Shown here: piece by piece, positions 1-6,889 of the stretch
Numbering within the stretch: position 1 is the first letter of the stretch
Layout of the letters: every line of letters starts with the position of its first letter
From: Marinospirillum sp.
Lineage (GTDB): Bacteria > Pseudomonadota > Gammaproteobacteria > Pseudomonadales > Halomonadaceae
Assembly (NCBI RefSeq): GCF_014859565.1
Contig: NZ_JACUUA010000036.1
Location: 1 to 24,200, forward strand
Reading direction: 5' to 3'
Length of the DNA stretch: 24,200 bases
Notes under the pieces: generated by a model
Databases searched by the model: none
Seen by the model: only the letters and a program-made list of their open reading frames with translations
What the model was told of the DNA's origin: nothing
Made by a program: the position numbers and the translations under genes

Positions 1-997
1 GCCGTTCAGTGGTGGCCGCATCAGGCACCAGTTGCAAGGCTTGCTGGATGCCCAGGTTGCGGGCTTCGGTCAGATGATCGGCCAGTTCCGCGACGGGTGT
101 ACAACTGCCAGCCACTCGCCAGATCAGTTGTTCCGGTGGTTGTTTTAACCATTGTTGCCAGAGTTGCTGTTCCTGCTGCCAATCATCCAAACCCAACTGC
201 AGGGTTGATTCGGTTTGGTGGTTGCTCAGTTGCCAGTGAATACAGCTGGCTTGCTGCCAATCACTCATCTGCCCCTGCTGCAGTGTTTTGTTGGCAGGGT
301 GAGTGGTTGCCTGCTGATGGGTGGATAAAGAATCAATATGCAGCGAGTGCTGTTGTAGTTTTAACCAGCGCCAATGGCAATATCCGGCCAGCAACAGGCG
401 TGGCAGCAGGTTGTACACCAGCAGGCTGGCGAGCAAAAACGACCACCAGCGGCTGGCTTCATCAAAACGGCTGGTGGTTTGCTCAATACGGGCAAAGTGG
501 GTTTGTTCCAGTAATGCCAGATCCGGTACGGCCTGTGGCCAGAAAGCCTGCCATGGTAGGCTGATGCTCTGAAAAATTGGCAAAAACAATTGGCTGTTGC
601 TGAGCAGGGTGGAGCTCCAGCCAAAGGCCAGATCAGAAAAAACCAGCAGCAAAAGAAACATCAACAGAATGCCGCAGGCAAACACCACCCACAGCCAGTG
701 CAGGCGGCTCAACAACCACCAGTGTTGTTTTGGTGTTGGTTGCCACCAGGCAGAAGCGCCACTGAAACGGGTAATCCATGGGCGGGATGAAGGACGAAAC
801 AGGAGCAGGGTTGCGGCCAGTGTGCCAAGCAGTGGTAAAGCCGCCCATAACAGCCAGATCAGAGGCAGATTGATACGGCCATCCGGGGCATAACTCAGCG
901 ATGCACCACCCAGCAACATGCCAGCCAGTAATGCCAGCGGCCAGAGCCACCAGAAAAGTTTTGGAGTCGGGGTGTCGCTGGTATCAGAAGTCCGCAT
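1..997 (-). CDS. DUF2868-type membrane protein, C-terminus cut off by window edge
   Basis: An open frame of 332 codons runs from the ATG at 997 off the left edge with no stop. An in-frame TGA lies 12 bases upstream of that ATG, so the start is well bounded. Two hydrophobic segments occur near the N-terminus (about residues 14-32 and 44-65), another at about 105-125, and one at about 180-195. A central stretch containing AFGWSSTL, a later LPWQAFWPQAVPDL and then HFARIE resembles, from memory, the DUF2868 family of integral membrane proteins. That family is often encoded beside a DUF3482 GTPase-like gene, which would lie beyond the edge. The rest is rich in Gln and Trp. It follows nrdG after 55 bases and may be its distal operon partner or simply a downstream neighbour. 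Its function is unknown; the family call is moderate and rests on motif memory only. Confidence 0.6.
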   Translation of the reverse strand, partial: MRTSDTSDTPTPKLFWWLWPLALLAGMLLGGASLSYAPDGRINLPLIWLLWAALPLLGTLAATLLLFRPSSRPWITRFSGASAWWQPTPKQHWWLLSRLHWLWVVFACGILLMFLLLLVFSDLAFGWSSTLLSNSQLFLPIFQSISLPWQAFWPQAVPDLALLEQTHFARIEQTTSRFDEASRWWSFLLASLLVYNLLPRLLLAGYCHWRWLKLQQHSLHIDSLSTHQQATTHPANKTLQQGQMSDWQQASCIHWQLSNHQTESTLQLGLDDWQQEQQLWQQWLKQPPEQLIWRVAGSCTPVAELADHLTEARNLGIQQALQLVPDAATTER

Positions 998-1052
998 GTG
1001 CCTGTCTCAGCCTGTGCTGCAGAAACATTAAGAGTTTGAGCAGTTTAACAGA

Positions 1053-1766
1053 TCAACGCAGCAGCAGTTGGCTGAAACGGGGTTGAAACTCAGCAATCAG
1101 GTTGTTAATAACCCGTGTATCAAACGCTTGGTCAATGCGGGCATAGTGTGGATCAAAACTCTGCCCAGCTCGGGCTAGTTGCAGGGCGCAGTGCTGCACT
1201 TGCTGGCTCTCCAGCCAGATCAGTAAATGGTGTATTCCCTGAATATCCAGATCCCTGGGATGCAGGGTGCAACGCACCTCAAAATTACAGCCGGATTGCT
1301 GCAGTAATTGCAGGCTTTGAACCACCTTGTTGGCGACACCCGGTCGACCACAGACCCGCTCATAATTGTGGGGTTCTGCTTTGATATCCAGTCCCACCCA
1401 GCCCAGCAGTGGTAATAATTCAGCCAGCCTAACGGGATTGATGCCAGAGGTGTGCAGGCCAATTTTAAACCCCATTTCTGCGGCTCTTGCCACAGCAGGC
1501 AAGAGTGCACGCTGGGCAGTGGGTTCGCCACCACTGAACACTACGGCCTGCAGCAGACCAATGCGGGATTGCAGAAATACATCAACCTGCTTCCAGCTGG
1601 GCGCACCCGGCGGTGCCTCAGAAGTCAGCATTTGTGGATTGTGGCAATAACCACAGCGCAGTGGGCAGCCTTGGGTGAAGACCACACAAGCCAGATGATC
1701 TGGATAATCCAGAGTGGTCATCGGGGTTAACCCGGCAACCACCAAGGATTCAGCCGTTGCTGACAT
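1053..1766 (-). CDS. nrdG: Anaerobic ribonucleotide reductase activating enzyme NrdG (radical SAM)
   Basis: This is a 237-residue radical SAM protein that generates the glycyl radical on the class III ribonucleotide reductase. The cluster motif CPLRCGYC (Cys34, Cys38, Cys41) is the CX3CX2C site that binds the [4Fe-4S] cluster, and FSGGEPT is the SAM-contacting glycine motif. The N-terminal TTLDYPDHLACVVF is typical of the longer NrdG variety found in pseudomonads. The ATG at 1766 shares one base with the TGA of the preceding 59-codon ORF (TGATG), which predicts translational coupling. It has only a weak Shine-Dalgarno sequence of its own. The gene is intact and belongs to the nrdD operon. In this operon its substrate glycine appears to lie on the separate small ORF rather than on NrdD. 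Confidence 0.93.
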   Translation of the reverse strand: MSATAESLVVAGLTPMTTLDYPDHLACVVFTQGCPLRCGYCHNPQMLTSEAPPGAPSWKQVDVFLQSRIGLLQAVVFSGGEPTAQRALLPAVARAAEMGFKIGLHTSGINPVRLAELLPLLGWVGLDIKAEPHNYERVCGRPGVANKVVQSLQLLQQSGCNFEVRCTLHPRDLDIQGIHHLLIWLESQQVQHCALQLARAGQSFDPHYARIDQAFDTRVINNLIAEFQPRFSQLLLR

Positions 1767-1945
1767 CAGAGTGCCGCGGCCTTTTCACTGAAATGGCAAC
1801 GCTCGGCATGTTCTGCTTGTTTGCCGGGATTAAACTGGCTCACCGGACGGTGGTAACCCATCACCCGTGTCCAGACTTCACAAGGCTGGCGCTCGTGATC
1901 TTCCAGTTGAATATTCTGCTCAATAAAAGAAATATGGCTGTTCAT
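1766..1945 (-). CDS. Stand-alone NrdD glycyl-radical domain (59 aa)
   Basis: This short ORF encodes 59 residues and lies between nrdD and nrdG. Residues 26-50 (TRVMGYHRP, then QFNPGKQAEHAER) match the C-terminal glycyl-radical loop of class III ribonucleotide reductases. Gly30 is the predicted radical site, corresponding to the RVCGY motif of E. coli NrdD. The larger nrdD product stops right after its zinc motif and has no such loop, so the two ORFs together make one complete NrdD. The small frame differs from that of nrdD, starts 41 bases after the nrdD stop and has a strong AAGGAG seven bases before its ATG. That favours a real separate protein over a sequencing error. Its stop overlaps the nrdG start. 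It probably binds NrdD in trans, much as GrcA (YfiD) complements pyruvate formate-lyase. The domain call is firm; the trans mechanism is inferred. Confidence 0.85.
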   Translation of the reverse strand: MNSHISFIEQNIQLEDHERQPCEVWTRVMGYHRPVSQFNPGKQAEHAERCHFSEKAAAL

Positions 1946-1986
1946 TGTTTAACTCCTTGGTTTTTTAGGTTGATTAACTACTGGTT

Positions 1987-3732
1987 TTAAATAGCTACAG
2001 CGGCAGGTTGAAGTTCAGCCTGGCGTTTTTGTTGCAAGCGTTCTTCATCACAACGCGGGCAGAATTGGTGTTCACCATCCAGATAACCGTGCACTGGGCA
2101 GATGGAAAAGGTGGGTGTAATGGTCAGATAAGGCAGGTGGAATTGACTGAGTGCCGTTTTTACCAGCTGTTTACAGGCCGTAGCGCTGGAAATGCGCTCA
2201 CGCATGTAGAGATGCAGCACCGTGCCGCCGGTATAACGTTTTTGCAGGGCATCCTGCAGCAGCAGCGCCTCAAAAGGATCATCGGTGAATCCTACTGGCA
2301 GCTGGCTGGAGTTGGTGTAATAGGGCTTATCTGCTGTGCCAGCCTGCAGAATGTCTGGGTAATGTTTACGATCCTCGCGGGCAAAACGGTAGGTGGTGCC
2401 TTCTGCCGGAGTAGCTTCCAGGTTATAGAGGTGGCCGGTTTGTTCCTGAAACACCTGCATTTTTTCACGAATATGATCCAGCAGTTGCAGAGCCAGTTGC
2501 TGGCCTTCGGCATCAGCCAGATTCACCCGATCCGCAGTGAAGTTGCGCAGCATTTCATTAATGCCATTCACACCAATGGTGGAAAAGTGATTACGCAGAG
2601 TACCCAGATAACGCTTGCTGTAGGGGTAAAGGCCATCATCCATCCAGTGTTGGATACGTTCACGTTTTACTTCCAGGCTGTCGCGGGATAACTCCAGCAA
2701 TTCATCCAGTGCAGCCAGCAGCCCCTGCCAGTCACCGGCAAAACGGTAACCCAGGCGGGCGCAGTTGATGGTCACCACACCAATAGATCCGGTCTGTTCA
2801 GCAGAACCAAACAGGCCATTACCGTGTTTCAGCAGCTCGCGCACATCCAGCTGCAGGCGGCAACACATGGAGCGCACCATGTGAGGTTTCAGATCCGAGT
2901 TCAGAAAGTTCTGAAAATAGGGCAGGCCGTAACGTGCAGTCAGATCAAACAACAGCTCGGTGTTGGGTGAATCCCAGTCAAATTCCGGGGTGATGTTGTA
3001 GGTCGGAATCGGAAAGGTGAATACCCGCGATTTACTGTCTCCTTCACGCATCACTTCCAGATAAGCGCGGTTGATCAAATCCATTTCAGCCTGCAGTTCA
3101 CCATAGGTGTAAGGCTGTTCTTCACCGCCGATCACCGGCACCTGATCAGCCAGATCCGCCGGACAAACCCAGTCAAAAGTCAGGTTAGTGAAAGGTGTCT
3201 GGGTGCCCCAGCGGGAAGGCACGTTCAGGTTGTAGATAAACTCCTGAATGCTCTGGCGCACCTCTTTGTAAGTCAGCTGATCCTTGCGGATGAAAGGTGC
3301 CAGATAGGTATCAAAAGAGCTGAATGCCTGAGCACCTGCCCATTCATTCTGCAGGGTGCCCAAAAAATTGACCATCTGCCCCAGTGCGCTGGATAGGTGG
3401 CGAGGTGGCTTGCTTTCTGCGCGTCCCGGTACACCGTTAAAACCTTCAAACAACAGCTGGCGCAATGACCAACCGGCACAATAACCAGACAACATATCCA
3501 GATCGTGCAGATGTAAATCGCCATGTCGGTGAGCAGCGCCCACTTCCGGTGAATAAACCTCGTTCAGCCAGTAATTTGCCGTGATCTTGCCCGCCACATT
3601 AAGAACCATGCCGCCCAGTGAATAACCCTGATTGGCATTGGCATTAACACGCCAGTCAGCACGTTGCAGATATTCTTCCATCGCGTGGCGAACATCGACC
3701 AGCAGGTGGGGGTTGGCAGCCCGGCTATTCAT
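1987..3732 (-). CDS. nrdD: Class III anaerobic ribonucleoside-triphosphate reductase, main chain lacking the glycyl-radical loop
   Basis: The product reduces ribonucleoside triphosphates to dNTPs without oxygen. Recognisable are the NrdD barrel core, the SGYCAGWS cysteine region, the MVRSMCCRLQ cysteine region and a C-terminal metal motif of Cys545, His548, Cys558 and Cys561 inside FSICPVHGYLDGEHQFCPRC. It is 581 residues long, against about 700 for E. coli. It lacks the N-terminal ATP-cone that would sense dATP/ATP, and it ends about 20 residues after the metal site without the RVxGY loop. An upstream in-frame ATG exists at 3744, but the one at 3732 has GGAG at proper spacing (GGAGAAAACC then ATG) and is preferred. 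The missing glycine loop is encoded by the next ORF. Predicted control is by NrdR and an FNR-type activator (see the promoter entries). Confidence 0.92.
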   Translation of the reverse strand: MNSRAANPHLLVDVRHAMEEYLQRADWRVNANANQGYSLGGMVLNVAGKITANYWLNEVYSPEVGAAHRHGDLHLHDLDMLSGYCAGWSLRQLLFEGFNGVPGRAESKPPRHLSSALGQMVNFLGTLQNEWAGAQAFSSFDTYLAPFIRKDQLTYKEVRQSIQEFIYNLNVPSRWGTQTPFTNLTFDWVCPADLADQVPVIGGEEQPYTYGELQAEMDLINRAYLEVMREGDSKSRVFTFPIPTYNITPEFDWDSPNTELLFDLTARYGLPYFQNFLNSDLKPHMVRSMCCRLQLDVRELLKHGNGLFGSAEQTGSIGVVTINCARLGYRFAGDWQGLLAALDELLELSRDSLEVKRERIQHWMDDGLYPYSKRYLGTLRNHFSTIGVNGINEMLRNFTADRVNLADAEGQQLALQLLDHIREKMQVFQEQTGHLYNLEATPAEGTTYRFAREDRKHYPDILQAGTADKPYYTNSSQLPVGFTDDPFEALLLQDALQKRYTGGTVLHLYMRERISSATACKQLVKTALSQFHLPYLTITPTFSICPVHGYLDGEHQFCPRCDEERLQQKRQAELQPAAVAI

Positions 3733-3737
3733 GGTTT

Positions 3738-3784
3738 TCTCCATATATGGTTGCTTTATGAATCTTAAACACTATATCTAGTGG
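3738..3784 (-). promoter_or_regulatory. Pair of NrdR boxes upstream of nrdD
   Basis: Two 16-bp boxes resemble the NrdR consensus (ACACWATATAWWGTGT-like). The box at 3769-3784 reads ACACTATATCTAGTGG and the box at 3738-3753 reads TCTCCATATATGGTTG. Their centres are exactly 31 bp apart, the three-helical-turn spacing known for paired NrdR sites. The distal box covers the predicted transcription start and the proximal one covers the ribosome binding site. Repression of nrdD by NrdR-dATP/ATP is the expected role. Confidence 0.8.
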
Positions 3785-3829
3785 TTTCATCTTAGAGCAC
3801 TGACGGCTAATAATCTTGACAAATGTCAG
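3782..3829 (-). promoter_or_regulatory. nrdD promoter, FNR-type class II
   Basis: The minus strand has TAAGAT at 3794-3789 as a -10 element, giving a start near 3782. The FNR-type box at 3816-3829 (TTGAC-AAAT-GTCAG) is then centred about 40.5 bases upstream, the class II activator position. The box matches TTGAT-N4-ATCAA at seven of ten half-site positions. It is shared with ubiT. Confidence 0.65.
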
Positions 3830-3864
3830 GGTTGATGAAGATTTCATCTTTTAAGATGGCGACT
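3816..3864 (+). promoter_or_regulatory. ubiT promoter using the same FNR-type box
   Basis: On the plus strand TAAGAT at 3852-3857 predicts a start near 3864. The FNR-type box at 3816-3829 is then centred 41.5 bases upstream, the exact class II distance. The same box sits almost equally far from the nrdD -10 element, so a single regulator dimer could drive both genes. Confidence 0.65.
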
Positions 3865-3887
3865 GACTTGCACAGAAAGGAGCAAAA

Positions 3888-4355
3888 ATGTTTTTACCAC
3901 CCATGCCTGCCGGTATCCGGCGTTTGCTGCAACCCGGTTATTGGGTTGCTTTGCTGGATTCACGTGTGCCCTTGCGAGTGAAAAAAATCCTGCTGGAACC
4001 ACGACTGAACAGTCTGTTTAAGGCTGCTCTGCAGGATGATGAATTTGAACTGCTGGAAGGGCGTTACCTGAGTCTGGTGATTCAGGATCTGGGAATCCAC
4101 CTGACCTTGACGGTGCAGCAGCAGCGGTTGTTACTCAGTGAACAACCACCGGAAACCACCATCCGTGGTGACTGGCGGGCGATGCTGCAACTGGCTTTAA
4201 GAAAAGAAGACCCGGATGGTTTGTTCTTTCGCCGCCAGTTGCTGATTGAGGGAGATACCGAGTTGGGGCTGGGTATCAAGAACCTGCTGGACAGTCTGGA
4301 CTGGTCACTGGATCAGGGCTGGCTGGGACGTGTACTTCATACAGCATCCACCTGA
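3888..4355 (+). CDS. ubiT: Anaerobic ubiquinone biosynthesis accessory factor UbiT (SCP2 domain)
   Basis: This 155-residue protein matches UbiT (YhbT), the SCP2-fold lipid-binding factor needed for oxygen-independent ubiquinone synthesis. It is thought to hold the hydrophobic ubiquinone precursors for the hydroxylation steps. Supporting features are the N-terminal hydrophobic/basic stretch and the SCP2-like middle (RYLSLVIQDLGIHLTLTV, then IRGDWRAMLQLALRKEDPDGLFFRRQLLIEGDTELG). The closing GDTELGLGIKNLLDSLDW is the typical end of the family. The ATG has AAAGGAG upstream with good spacing. It diverges from nrdD and converges on ubiV, overlapping its 3' end by 19 bp (4337-4355). The presence of ubiU and ubiV next door supports the call strongly. 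Confidence 0.92.
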   Translation: MFLPPMPAGIRRLLQPGYWVALLDSRVPLRVKKILLEPRLNSLFKAALQDDEFELLEGRYLSLVIQDLGIHLTLTVQQQRLLLSEQPPETTIRGDWRAMLQLALRKEDPDGLFFRRQLLIEGDTELGLGIKNLLDSLDWSLDQGWLGRVLHTAST

Positions 4356-5245
4356 GTCATGCCGGGCTCTGCAAACCAGTAACCATTACAGCCATCCAAC
4401 TGCAGCAATTGCAGTGGATCACTGGCTGGTTGTTCACCCCGGCGCACCTGATCAAAGGCCATCACCACCGACTCCATATCCGTGCCAGTTGCACTGAGCC
4501 GCACATGACTGACTCCCAGTTGTTGTATGTCTGGTAATTGCCGGATCAGATTATGGCAACTGCCGGAGAGGGTCTGGATGCCATTGATGGTAAACAGCTG
4601 CTGATTTTCCTGTGATGTCAGCGGTAAACCAGCGGGATAATCCTTACAGACAAACTGGCAACGATCTTTGGGTAGATCATGGTGGCGTGCGGTGAAACAT
4701 CGAGCTGACCAGGCCAGTGGCAGGTGACCAAAAGCAAAAACCTCTGTTTCCACCGGTAGTTGCTGTTGCTGAATATAAGTCAGTTGATCGGCCAGGGTGG
4801 TGCGTGACAGCTCCACTGGAAAACACCAGCGCTGCATGCCCTGATCAACCAGCAGCCGCAGGCTGTGCTGGTTATAAATATTGATGGCTGCCCCGGCAAC
4901 AAAGGGTAACTCCAGTTCCTTGCAGGCTTGGACAGCACTCAGGTCATTGGCCTCGATTAACCCCTGACCACCATGTGATTTGATTGCTTCCAGCAACTTG
5001 TAAAGCTGGCGCAGATCAGTTTCGGACTCCAGCAGTGTCTGGGTGGACATCACCACCTCTTTACCGGCAGCAGTTAACTGATCAGCAATCTCCAGCCAAT
5101 CCGGCAGTTTCATTTCTCGGCGGCGCGAACAAACACTTTCACCCAGATAAACCACATCAACAGGCCAGTCGGCCACCTGCCCGTAAAAATGGTGCACCTC
5201 GGCTGCAGGCCAGAAATACAATAAAGAGCCCAGGGTCAGTTTCAC
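4337..5245 (-). CDS. ubiV: Oxygen-independent ubiquinone hydroxylation protein UbiV (U32 family)
   Basis: UbiV is a U32-family [4Fe-4S] protein that, with UbiU, supports hydroxylation of the ubiquinone ring without O2. Starting at the GTG at 5245, the four cluster cysteines fall at 39, 183, 196 and 200. Their spacing is essentially that known for E. coli UbiV (39, 180, 193, 197), and GGAG lies nine bases upstream, so GTG is preferred. The frame stays open upstream to an ATG at 5260 and a TTG at 5263, which would add five or six residues. The product is 302 residues, the usual family length. It follows ubiU after 33 bases in the same operon and ends within the 3' end of the oppositely oriented ubiT. 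Confidence 0.92.
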   Translation of the reverse strand: MKLTLGSLLYFWPAAEVHHFYGQVADWPVDVVYLGESVCSRRREMKLPDWLEIADQLTAAGKEVVMSTQTLLESETDLRQLYKLLEAIKSHGGQGLIEANDLSAVQACKELELPFVAGAAINIYNQHSLRLLVDQGMQRWCFPVELSRTTLADQLTYIQQQQLPVETEVFAFGHLPLAWSARCFTARHHDLPKDRCQFVCKDYPAGLPLTSQENQQLFTINGIQTLSGSCHNLIRQLPDIQQLGVSHVRLSATGTDMESVVMAFDQVRRGEQPASDPLQLLQLDGCNGYWFAEPGMTQVDAV

Positions 5246-5278
5246 GTTAAAAAACTCCATCAAGGTATCAGGTTTGGG

Positions 5279-6274
5279 TTATTTCCAGCGGCGGTGATAA
5301 GCACCCAGTGTGGTGATGCTGCCTTCGGACAGGCTGCTCAACTGCTGCTGCCAGTGGTTTGCCACCATAAAATCCTGTTGTTGTTGCTGCAGCTGATCCA
5401 AAGCCTGCCGCCAAACCTGTACGATCTGGCTGACATAAGCCGGGCTACGCTGGCGTCCTTCCAGCTTGATGGCACTGATGCCCATCTGCTGTAACTGCGG
5501 CAACAAATCCAGCGTGTTCAGGCTGGTGGGTTCTTCCAGTGCATGGTACTGCTCCTGCCCGACTTTAAACCGCCCTTTGCAGAGGGTGGGATAACCGGCT
5601 TTTTCATGTTTGCCATAACGATCAATCAGTACCCCGTTGAGTCGTGATTCCAGTCCTTGTGAGGTTTCTTCCCAGCGTACCGCTTTGGCGGGTGAACAGG
5701 CTCCGCGTGAATTGGGGGATTCATCCGTCAGATAAGATGAAAGGTAACAACGGCCTTCCACCATGATACACAGGCTACCAAAACCAAAAACCTCCAGCTC
5801 AACCGGTGAATGGCTGACCAGCTCTGCAACCTGAGCAATCGACAGAACCCGAGGCAAAACAGCACGGCGAATACCAAAGTTCTGATGATAAAATCTGAGT
5901 GCGGCCTGAGTGGTGGCTGATCCCTGAACTGATAAATGGCGCGCGACATCCGGGTATTTGTGAGTGGCATAATCCAGCAGACCAATATCAGCCAGAATTA
6001 ATGCATCCACCCCCAGATTGGCGGCCTGATCCACAGCAGTTGTCCATTCCTGCCAACCAGCCGGTTGTGGATAGGTGTTGATGGCACAAAAGACCCGGCA
6101 GTTTTTGGCATGGGCATAACGAATGCCTTCCGCAGCCTTTTGTTCTGTAAAGTTCAGCCCGGCAAACTGGCGGGCATTGGTGGCATTACGAAAGCCCAGA
6201 TACACGGCATTGGCACCTTGATCCACGGCAGCTTTTAAGGCCGGAAGGCTTCCGGCGGGGCAGACCAGTTCCAT
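5279..6274 (-). CDS. ubiU: Oxygen-independent ubiquinone hydroxylation protein UbiU (U32 family)
   Basis: The 331-residue product is a full-length U32 family member. The four cysteines that bind the [4Fe-4S] cluster in E. coli UbiU are present at the same numbers: Cys169, Cys176, Cys193 and Cys232. The opening MELVCPAGSLPALKAAVDQG and the GFGSLCIMVEGRCYLSSY region are family signatures. UbiU forms a heterodimer with UbiV and enables O2-free hydroxylation in ubiquinone synthesis. AGGAG lies six bases before the ATG. The gene is second in the operon, 32 bases after the DGC-domain gene. A glutamine run near residue 295 is the only low-complexity stretch. Confidence 0.95.
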   Translation of the reverse strand: MELVCPAGSLPALKAAVDQGANAVYLGFRNATNARQFAGLNFTEQKAAEGIRYAHAKNCRVFCAINTYPQPAGWQEWTTAVDQAANLGVDALILADIGLLDYATHKYPDVARHLSVQGSATTQAALRFYHQNFGIRRAVLPRVLSIAQVAELVSHSPVELEVFGFGSLCIMVEGRCYLSSYLTDESPNSRGACSPAKAVRWEETSQGLESRLNGVLIDRYGKHEKAGYPTLCKGRFKVGQEQYHALEEPTSLNTLDLLPQLQQMGISAIKLEGRQRSPAYVSQIVQVWRQALDQLQQQQQDFMVANHWQQQLSSLSEGSITTLGAYHRRWK

Positions 6275-6841: not shown

Positions 6842-6889
6842 CTATTTAAATGTATCGTCTCGTGGAATAGGTGTCTTGATGATTATCAA
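6842..6889 (-). promoter_or_regulatory. FNR-box promoter for the DGC-ubiU-ubiV operon
   Basis: TTGAT-GATT-ATCAA at 6876-6889 is a perfect FNR/Anr/Dnr box. On the minus strand TACATT at 6854-6849 is a fair -10 element 21 bases away. That puts the start near 6842 with the box at about -40.5. The box begins 11 bases beyond the stop codon of the regulator gene. The orientation toward DGC-ubiUV is inferred from spacing. Confidence 0.75.

Follow-up and report, generated by a model that had tools for sequence, protein, structure and literature searches.

A class III ribonucleotide reductase very probably divided between NrdD and a small glycyl-radical chain

Introduction

In the textbook class III ribonucleotide reductase (RNR), the radical is stored on the catalytic chain. 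The window analysed here, a stretch of 24,200 nucleotides from Marinospirillum sp., contains an nrdD that stops short of the glycyl loop, and thus raises the question of where the radical would be housed. A sequence-only reading had placed the loop on a separate small ORF between nrdD and nrdG. Following this up across genomes and viral contigs, we conclude that the system is very probably a class III RNR split into two obligatory chains, NrdD and a radical-loop chain of about 60 residues that docks in trans. A search of the open-access literature (subscription papers and RNRdb lay outside it) yielded no description of a two-piece class III RNR, and public annotation labels many of the small genes anaerobic ribonucleoside-triphosphate reductase. 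The sequences themselves are thus not new; what does not seem to have been discussed yet is their architecture.

Results

The nrdD gene occupies 1987..3732 on the minus strand, which carries all features of the locus. The longest ORF opens at 3744, with 3732 the likelier start given a GGAG just upstream and the nearby starts of close relatives. The product matches Pfam NRDD (PF13597) over positions 2-530 of 562 with 584 bits, and NF006126 with 1028.8 bits. Its AlphaFold prediction has a mean pLDDT of 77.6, and the 36 best Foldseek matches to this model are all class III RNRs. Both N36-A37-N38 (the presumed NxN flap) and C294-C295 are invariant in 44 aligned rows, the latter pair presumably including the active-site cysteine that carries the radical in NrdD. 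At the end of NrdD, a metal knuckle of the form CxxH...CxxC (2050..2100, minus strand) is made up of C549, H552, C562 and C565 in the 585-residue numbering; all four are invariant across 44 aligned split NrdDs, and the knuckle is predicted to bind zinc. The chain ends 20 residues after C565, the last cysteine of the motif, and contains no RVxGY, as the sequence-only reading had described.

The missing part lies downstream. A gap of 41 bases (1946..1986, minus strand) separates nrdD from a gene for a predicted small glycyl-radical subunit of 59 amino acids (1766..1945, minus strand), and contains no intron, intein or endonuclease gene; it holds an AAGGAG (1953-1958), 7 bases ahead of the small ATG, and an in-frame TAA two codons upstream of that ATG. 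The small ORF is in a different frame from nrdD, and its Gly30 (codon at 1856..1858, minus strand), the predicted radical site in TRVMGYHRP, is invariant in a 24-row alignment of small proteins. The separate ORF in another frame, its AAGGAG site and Gly30 in TRVMGYHRP had all been claimed beforehand and hold on the sequence, as does the overlap with nrdG, in which the small-ORF stop and the nrdG ATG are shared as TGATG. The nrdG product (1053..1766, minus strand) is a radical SAM activase of the NrdG2 type, matching TIGR02495 with 180.8 bits (cut-off 131.15). The small ORF matches Pfam NRDD over positions 530-562 of 562 (34.9 bits, cut-off 26.2), so that the family is cut at position 530 into two complementary matches, one in each ORF. 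A chance match of the small ORF is excluded by these complementary halves, together with 3473 relatives and the presence of the loop in all 120 of those listed. Because the break falls 20 residues past the knuckle, the latter remains on the barrel chain, and it is the glycyl loop and tail that are encoded apart. The NRDD match, barrel fold and dedicated NrdG are present and the same-chain C-terminal loop is absent; family, fold and activase make the window system a class III RNR, minus the single-chain feature.

AlphaFold models for the window NrdD and for the naturally fused L055 yielded the barrel, with the loop region lacking confidence: in L055, residues 584-616 fall below a pLDDT of 50, and docking is not supported by the model. 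The window NrdD begins at about position 93 of NF006126, and the NrdD of Cupriavidus necator H16 is about 95 residues longer; judging from these lengths, the N-terminal regulatory cone seems to have been lost in the window's lineage.

The 3473 relatives of the small ORF, similar to it in length, come from a collection of 5.8 billion proteins searched at E<=0.001. The pattern R.{1,2}GY is present in 120/120 of the small-ORF relatives listed, and R[VI].GY was found in none of the 120 listed closest NrdD relatives. The sequence-only reading had suggested looking for small NRDD-domain proteins between nrdD and nrdG in related genomes, and they do recur: a genome-contig scan with the 24 aligned small proteins returned at least 577 relatives, and the best 80 of these loci comprise 76 split, two fused (L055 and L063) and two without an NrdD core (L015 and L018). 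The split loci include L077, whose nrdD is in pieces and which was scored fused in one tally and split in another; we rely on it for neither. The start of nrdG is usually no more than about 150 bases from the point where the small gene ends. Across 13 Pseudomonas/Stutzerimonas loci, the small gene has a median dN/dS of 0.043 (65 of 78 pairs with finite dS), with mean pS of 0.567 and pN of 0.040 over 34 conserved codons, and is under purifying selection. No second NrdD was found in any of the six split genomes first searched, nor in 20 split genomes from the class of G001 (Stutzerimonas). The sequence-only reading had named as contrary outcomes a frameshift joining the two ORFs, or a second full-length nrdD with the small ORF absent; neither was encountered in relatives.

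Could the two ORFs nevertheless yield a single NrdD chain, through an assembly frameshift, a programmed frameshift or readthrough? Fused relatives are known (L055, L063, L092, L216 and L220; in L055, L092 and L216 the same loop sits at the C-terminal end of NrdD), and in 38 of 137 distinct split loci the small frame extends upstream across the nrdD end without a stop. (The 137 leave out L087-L090, L119 and L176, which are second fetches, and the broken L077 and L230.) However, the small ORF lies in frames 0, 1 and 2 relative to nrdD in 21, 26 and 29 of the 76 split loci, and shares the nrdD frame in 36 of the 137, near one third; stops close the small frame between the NrdD core and the loop in 99 of the 137. 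SD-like sites precede 65 of 76 small starts compared with 135 of 1804 control ATGs, as counted over 75 loci plus the window, with the ATG nearest the loop taken as start and control ATGs lying upstream. In the window, the in-frame TAA ahead of the small ATG means that a single frameshift cannot join the two ORFs. Frames, SD sites and stops thus lead us to reject fusion by frameshift or readthrough as a general account, with the 38 open loci still compatible with it, and we consider it very improbable. It is harder still to believe that the split nrdD is a relic in decay, with the small ORF as its remnant. The broken reading frame itself speaks for decay, and we found nothing further that does; against it stand the strong purifying selection on the small gene, the invariance of the loop residues across distant groups, and the need for NrdDG in C. 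necator H16, described in the consulted part of PMC2864759 as essential for complete denitrification. A small chain acting in trans, as the sequence-only reading had proposed, is supported by its position next to nrdD in many genomes and in all three frames, by purifying selection and by the lack of a second NrdD in the six genomes.

To gauge how widely the split occurs, genomes were sampled evenly by group and searched with PF13597; the sampled groups overlap. In the class of G001, 28 of 274 genomes were NRDD-positive (20 split, 6 fused and 2 fragments or weak matches). The phylum of G001 gave 34 of 299: 10 are split and 23 fused, the E. coli-type loop predominating among the latter, and the remaining one is L136, a locus treated below. 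Nineteen split and nine fused genomes were found among 30 positives out of 240 in the class of G002 (Afipia), in addition to L136 and to L149, whose loop gene is on a different contig from nrdD. Eight of 201 genomes in the phylum of G005 (titled Thermoflexus) were positive, of which five are fused, two have no small gene beside nrdD and one, G005 itself, is split. The NrdD of G005 clusters with rows titled Rhodocyclaceae, making transfer or mis-binning a possible source. In the phylum of G006 (Omnitrophota), 50 of 145 were positive, and of the 43 examined, 21 are split and 22 are fused. Split systems are also found in C. metallidurans CH34 and Paracoccus denitrificans (L210, L211). P. aeruginosa does not figure in the 120 named matches listed, which include other Pseudomonas. 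On plasmid pHG1 of C. necator H16, a 676-residue NrdD of 76.2 kDa is accompanied by a small protein of 66 residues and 7.7 kDa, encoded by H16_RS32675. Siedow (1999) reportedly gave 76.2 kDa for the H16 NrdD, equal to the computed mass, and is said to have given 30.9 kDa for NrdG, which does not match the computed 25.4-27.1 kDa. In G140, G794, G975, G991 and G1083, NrdD matches come in pieces within one long frame (1021 to 1492 residues), as inteins would give.

The history of the split was examined with a 171-row FastTree tree and an 82-row quick IQ-TREE tree, both leaving out the last 25 core residues. In both trees, one large group holds most split NrdDs, with the fusions L055, L092 and L216 inside it and a fused alphaproteobacterial group (L160, L161, L164 and L218, joined by L165 in the 171-row tree) branching at its base or close to it. 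The fused members of the G005 and G006 groups lie outside. The 82-row tree requires seven changes of split/fused state, a count limited by the root and weak branches, the IQ-TREE outgroup not being a single clade. Fission probably occurred on several occasions, followed in some cases by re-fusion. We considered and rejected a single origin, as the Omnitrophota L196-L205 (loop TGFFRP), L199 and L136 look like separate fissions. L136 (G560) combines another NrdD type with a detached loop ORF (RTRRITGY), which is followed by an nrdG-like frame, and is probably an independent fission. The idea that the split could be an old lineage trait, raised in the sequence-only reading, is supported.

Loop genes also occur away from nrdD. 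Most split genomes seen have a single small gene; G625, G642 and G273 have two apiece, and G565 has four for one NrdD. G919 combines a fused NrdD (L169) with a stand-alone loop protein (L242), near ORFs that by reading only resemble FocA and CysS. The orphan L015 (BMS3Bbin13) lies among RecT-like and RecE-like genes and an ORF that reads as class II RNR-like. L233-L238 and L212 are likewise extra or orphan loop genes away from nrdD, in genomes and on the Allochromatium vinosum plasmid pALVIN01. In L018, nrdG lies downstream of the small gene; the 2.4 kb of contig ahead of the small gene contain no NrdD core.

The split-type loop was found on 127 viral contigs, retrieved by loop motifs, so that the retrieval gives no measure of loop constancy. 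In the best 80 of these loci (L244-L323), two profiles found the NrdD catalytic part in 0/80 and tblastn found no match to NrdD or NrdG; a loop ORF with a median length of 68 aa is visible in 79, and in 56 the sequence upstream of it exceeds 2.5 kb. Phage structural or integrase genes are present in all six viral loci examined (L251, L258, L279, L297, L309 and L312). By way of control, the E. coli-type loop was found in 56 viral loci, with NrdD in 56/56. The YSRVVGY loop gave 331 viral loci, the best 80 of which (within L324-L403) comprise 25 with NrdD and 55 without, 41 of the latter having more than 2.5 kb upstream. As this loop is also found without NrdD, the occurrence of stand-alone copies extends beyond the split type. 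Mean pS is 0.48 and mean pN 0.145 over the 159 closer pairs of 2016, and the viral loop codons are under purifying selection. The family phrog_4132, annotated as 'unknown function', matches the window small protein and four of seven viral proteins tried, the remaining three matching only phrog_487 (NrdD family); NRDD alone passes the Pfam cut-off in the window small ORF and the four viral proteins scanned. Among cultured phages, two tblastn searches of 50,697 phage records each turned up two weak matches, with no record covering 80% of the query, and the viral claim therefore rests on uncultivated contigs. One viral ORF of 146 aa (L378, 5680-6120) has two CxxC pairs ahead of the glycyl loop, as if the whole metal-and-loop domain had been copied.

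Discussion

We propose that NrdD would contribute the barrel, the substrate sites and the metal knuckle, and the separate chain of about 60 residues, translated from its own start, the glycyl-radical loop and C-terminal tail. By radical SAM chemistry, NrdG would abstract a hydrogen from the small chain at Gly30, whether that chain is free or bound to NrdD. YfiD requires its partner enzyme for activation, according to the available part of PMC8683613, and this favours activation of the small chain in the complex. The activated chain would then dock on NrdD and insert its loop into the barrel, and the radical would be handed to the active-site cysteine and serve many turnovers. Such enzymes are cut by oxygen at the glycine (PMC3019208, in the portion consulted). 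Since the cleavage sits at the glycine, only 60 residues would need replacing, and the small chain alone could be exchanged. For single-chain class III RNRs, the accessible sections describe a glycyl-radical domain that flips from the core for NrdG and then returns (PMC12662201), and one that can be disordered in P. copri (PMC11226230). The split would turn this mobile element into a separate molecule.

The family, fold and activase are shared with the single-chain enzymes of E. coli, T4, T. maritima, P. copri and S. thermophilus, and knuckle, loop and tail come in identical order; the glycyl-radical domain forms the NrdD C-terminus in these, whereas loop and tail have their own gene in the window. 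GrcA/YfiD and T4 Y06I, which serve pyruvate formate-lyase (PFL), are likewise small proteins that bring a glycyl radical in trans, and a phage version is known. The likeness to GrcA drawn in the sequence-only reading therefore stands as far as a small chain in trans goes, and fails beyond it: GrcA has a PFL-type domain and repairs an enzyme that has its own glycine after cleavage, in contrast to the small protein, which is NRDD-type and falls outside the PFL type, and to the window NrdD, which has no glycyl loop. Since NrdD has no loop of its own, the enzyme should depend on the small chain as an obligatory subunit. By analogy, the closer likeness to GrcA would be the stand-alone copies found at a distance from nrdD in some genomes and on many viral contigs, and G919 may have the GrcA-like partner with its own glycine. 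In NrdJa+b, the split class II RNR of Pseudomonas aeruginosa, a C-terminal part, in this case the metal domain, likewise has a gene of its own; as described in the parts consulted of PMC5704485 and PMC9669993, that enzyme is B12-dependent and without a glycyl radical, the separate part serving re-reduction and assembly. Phage nrdD and nrdA can also come in pieces, some of them functional, through introns, inteins and homing endonucleases (for example Aeh1 nrdA; PMC3653736, in the sections seen). Those breaks are sporadic, whereas the one described here falls consistently at a domain border across many genomes, and no element intervenes.

If the small chain can be exchanged, the split might serve as an oxygen-repair device, in which damaged small chains leave NrdD and fresh ones dock. 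The extra copies in G565 and G919 and the viral contigs with the small protein alone point this way; the nrdG overlap suggests matched supply rather than excess, and the single small gene of most split genomes also counts against it, so that we advance the repair function tentatively. In a broader reading, which seems to us an even proposition, the glycyl-radical part is an exchangeable module: an obligatory small subunit in many bacteria, it would be carried alone by phages, both where the host's NrdD is split and where it is fused, and would supply or repair anaerobic nucleotide reduction in the infected host; phrog_4132 would belong to it. The viral copies could instead be decoys that take up host NrdG or block host NrdD. 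The lack of any nrdD or nrdG match in the best 80 of the 127 viral loci would suit a decoy, yet purifying selection maintains the loop in the viral copies, and the viral counterpart already known, T4 Y06I, acts in the repair of PFL (PMC8683613, in the part consulted); we regard a decoy role as unlikely.

Should the radical indeed sit on a detachable protein of about 60 residues, 'nrdDG' would be a three-gene system in many bacteria, and NrdD plus NrdG should not suffice for reconstitution. It then becomes testable how the glycyl domain moves out of NrdD for activation, and whether there are spare parts for glycyl-radical enzymes beyond PFL; in the available part of PMC8683613, such parts are validated for PFL only and raised as a possibility for other enzymes. 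If the reading as an exchangeable module is correct, this would be the first spare-part system outside PFL, and the viral copies suggest that phages may influence host anaerobic DNA synthesis through one tiny gene.

The window has further genes around the locus. UbiT (NF047962) is divergent from nrdD and is followed by two U32-type ORFs, one matched to PF01136, which we take to be ubiU and ubiV; 3888-6274 likely holds the oxygen-independent ubiquinone genes ubiT, ubiU and ubiV. FNR-like boxes lie at 3816-3829 and 6876-6889, the latter perfect, although the window total of 4 is no excess over the 3.57 expected by chance, and a promoter scan of 900-4400 found none. Between 6901 and 23751, large ORFs resemble, by reading only, a CRP/FNR regulator, narGHJI, narXL and two nitrate transporters.
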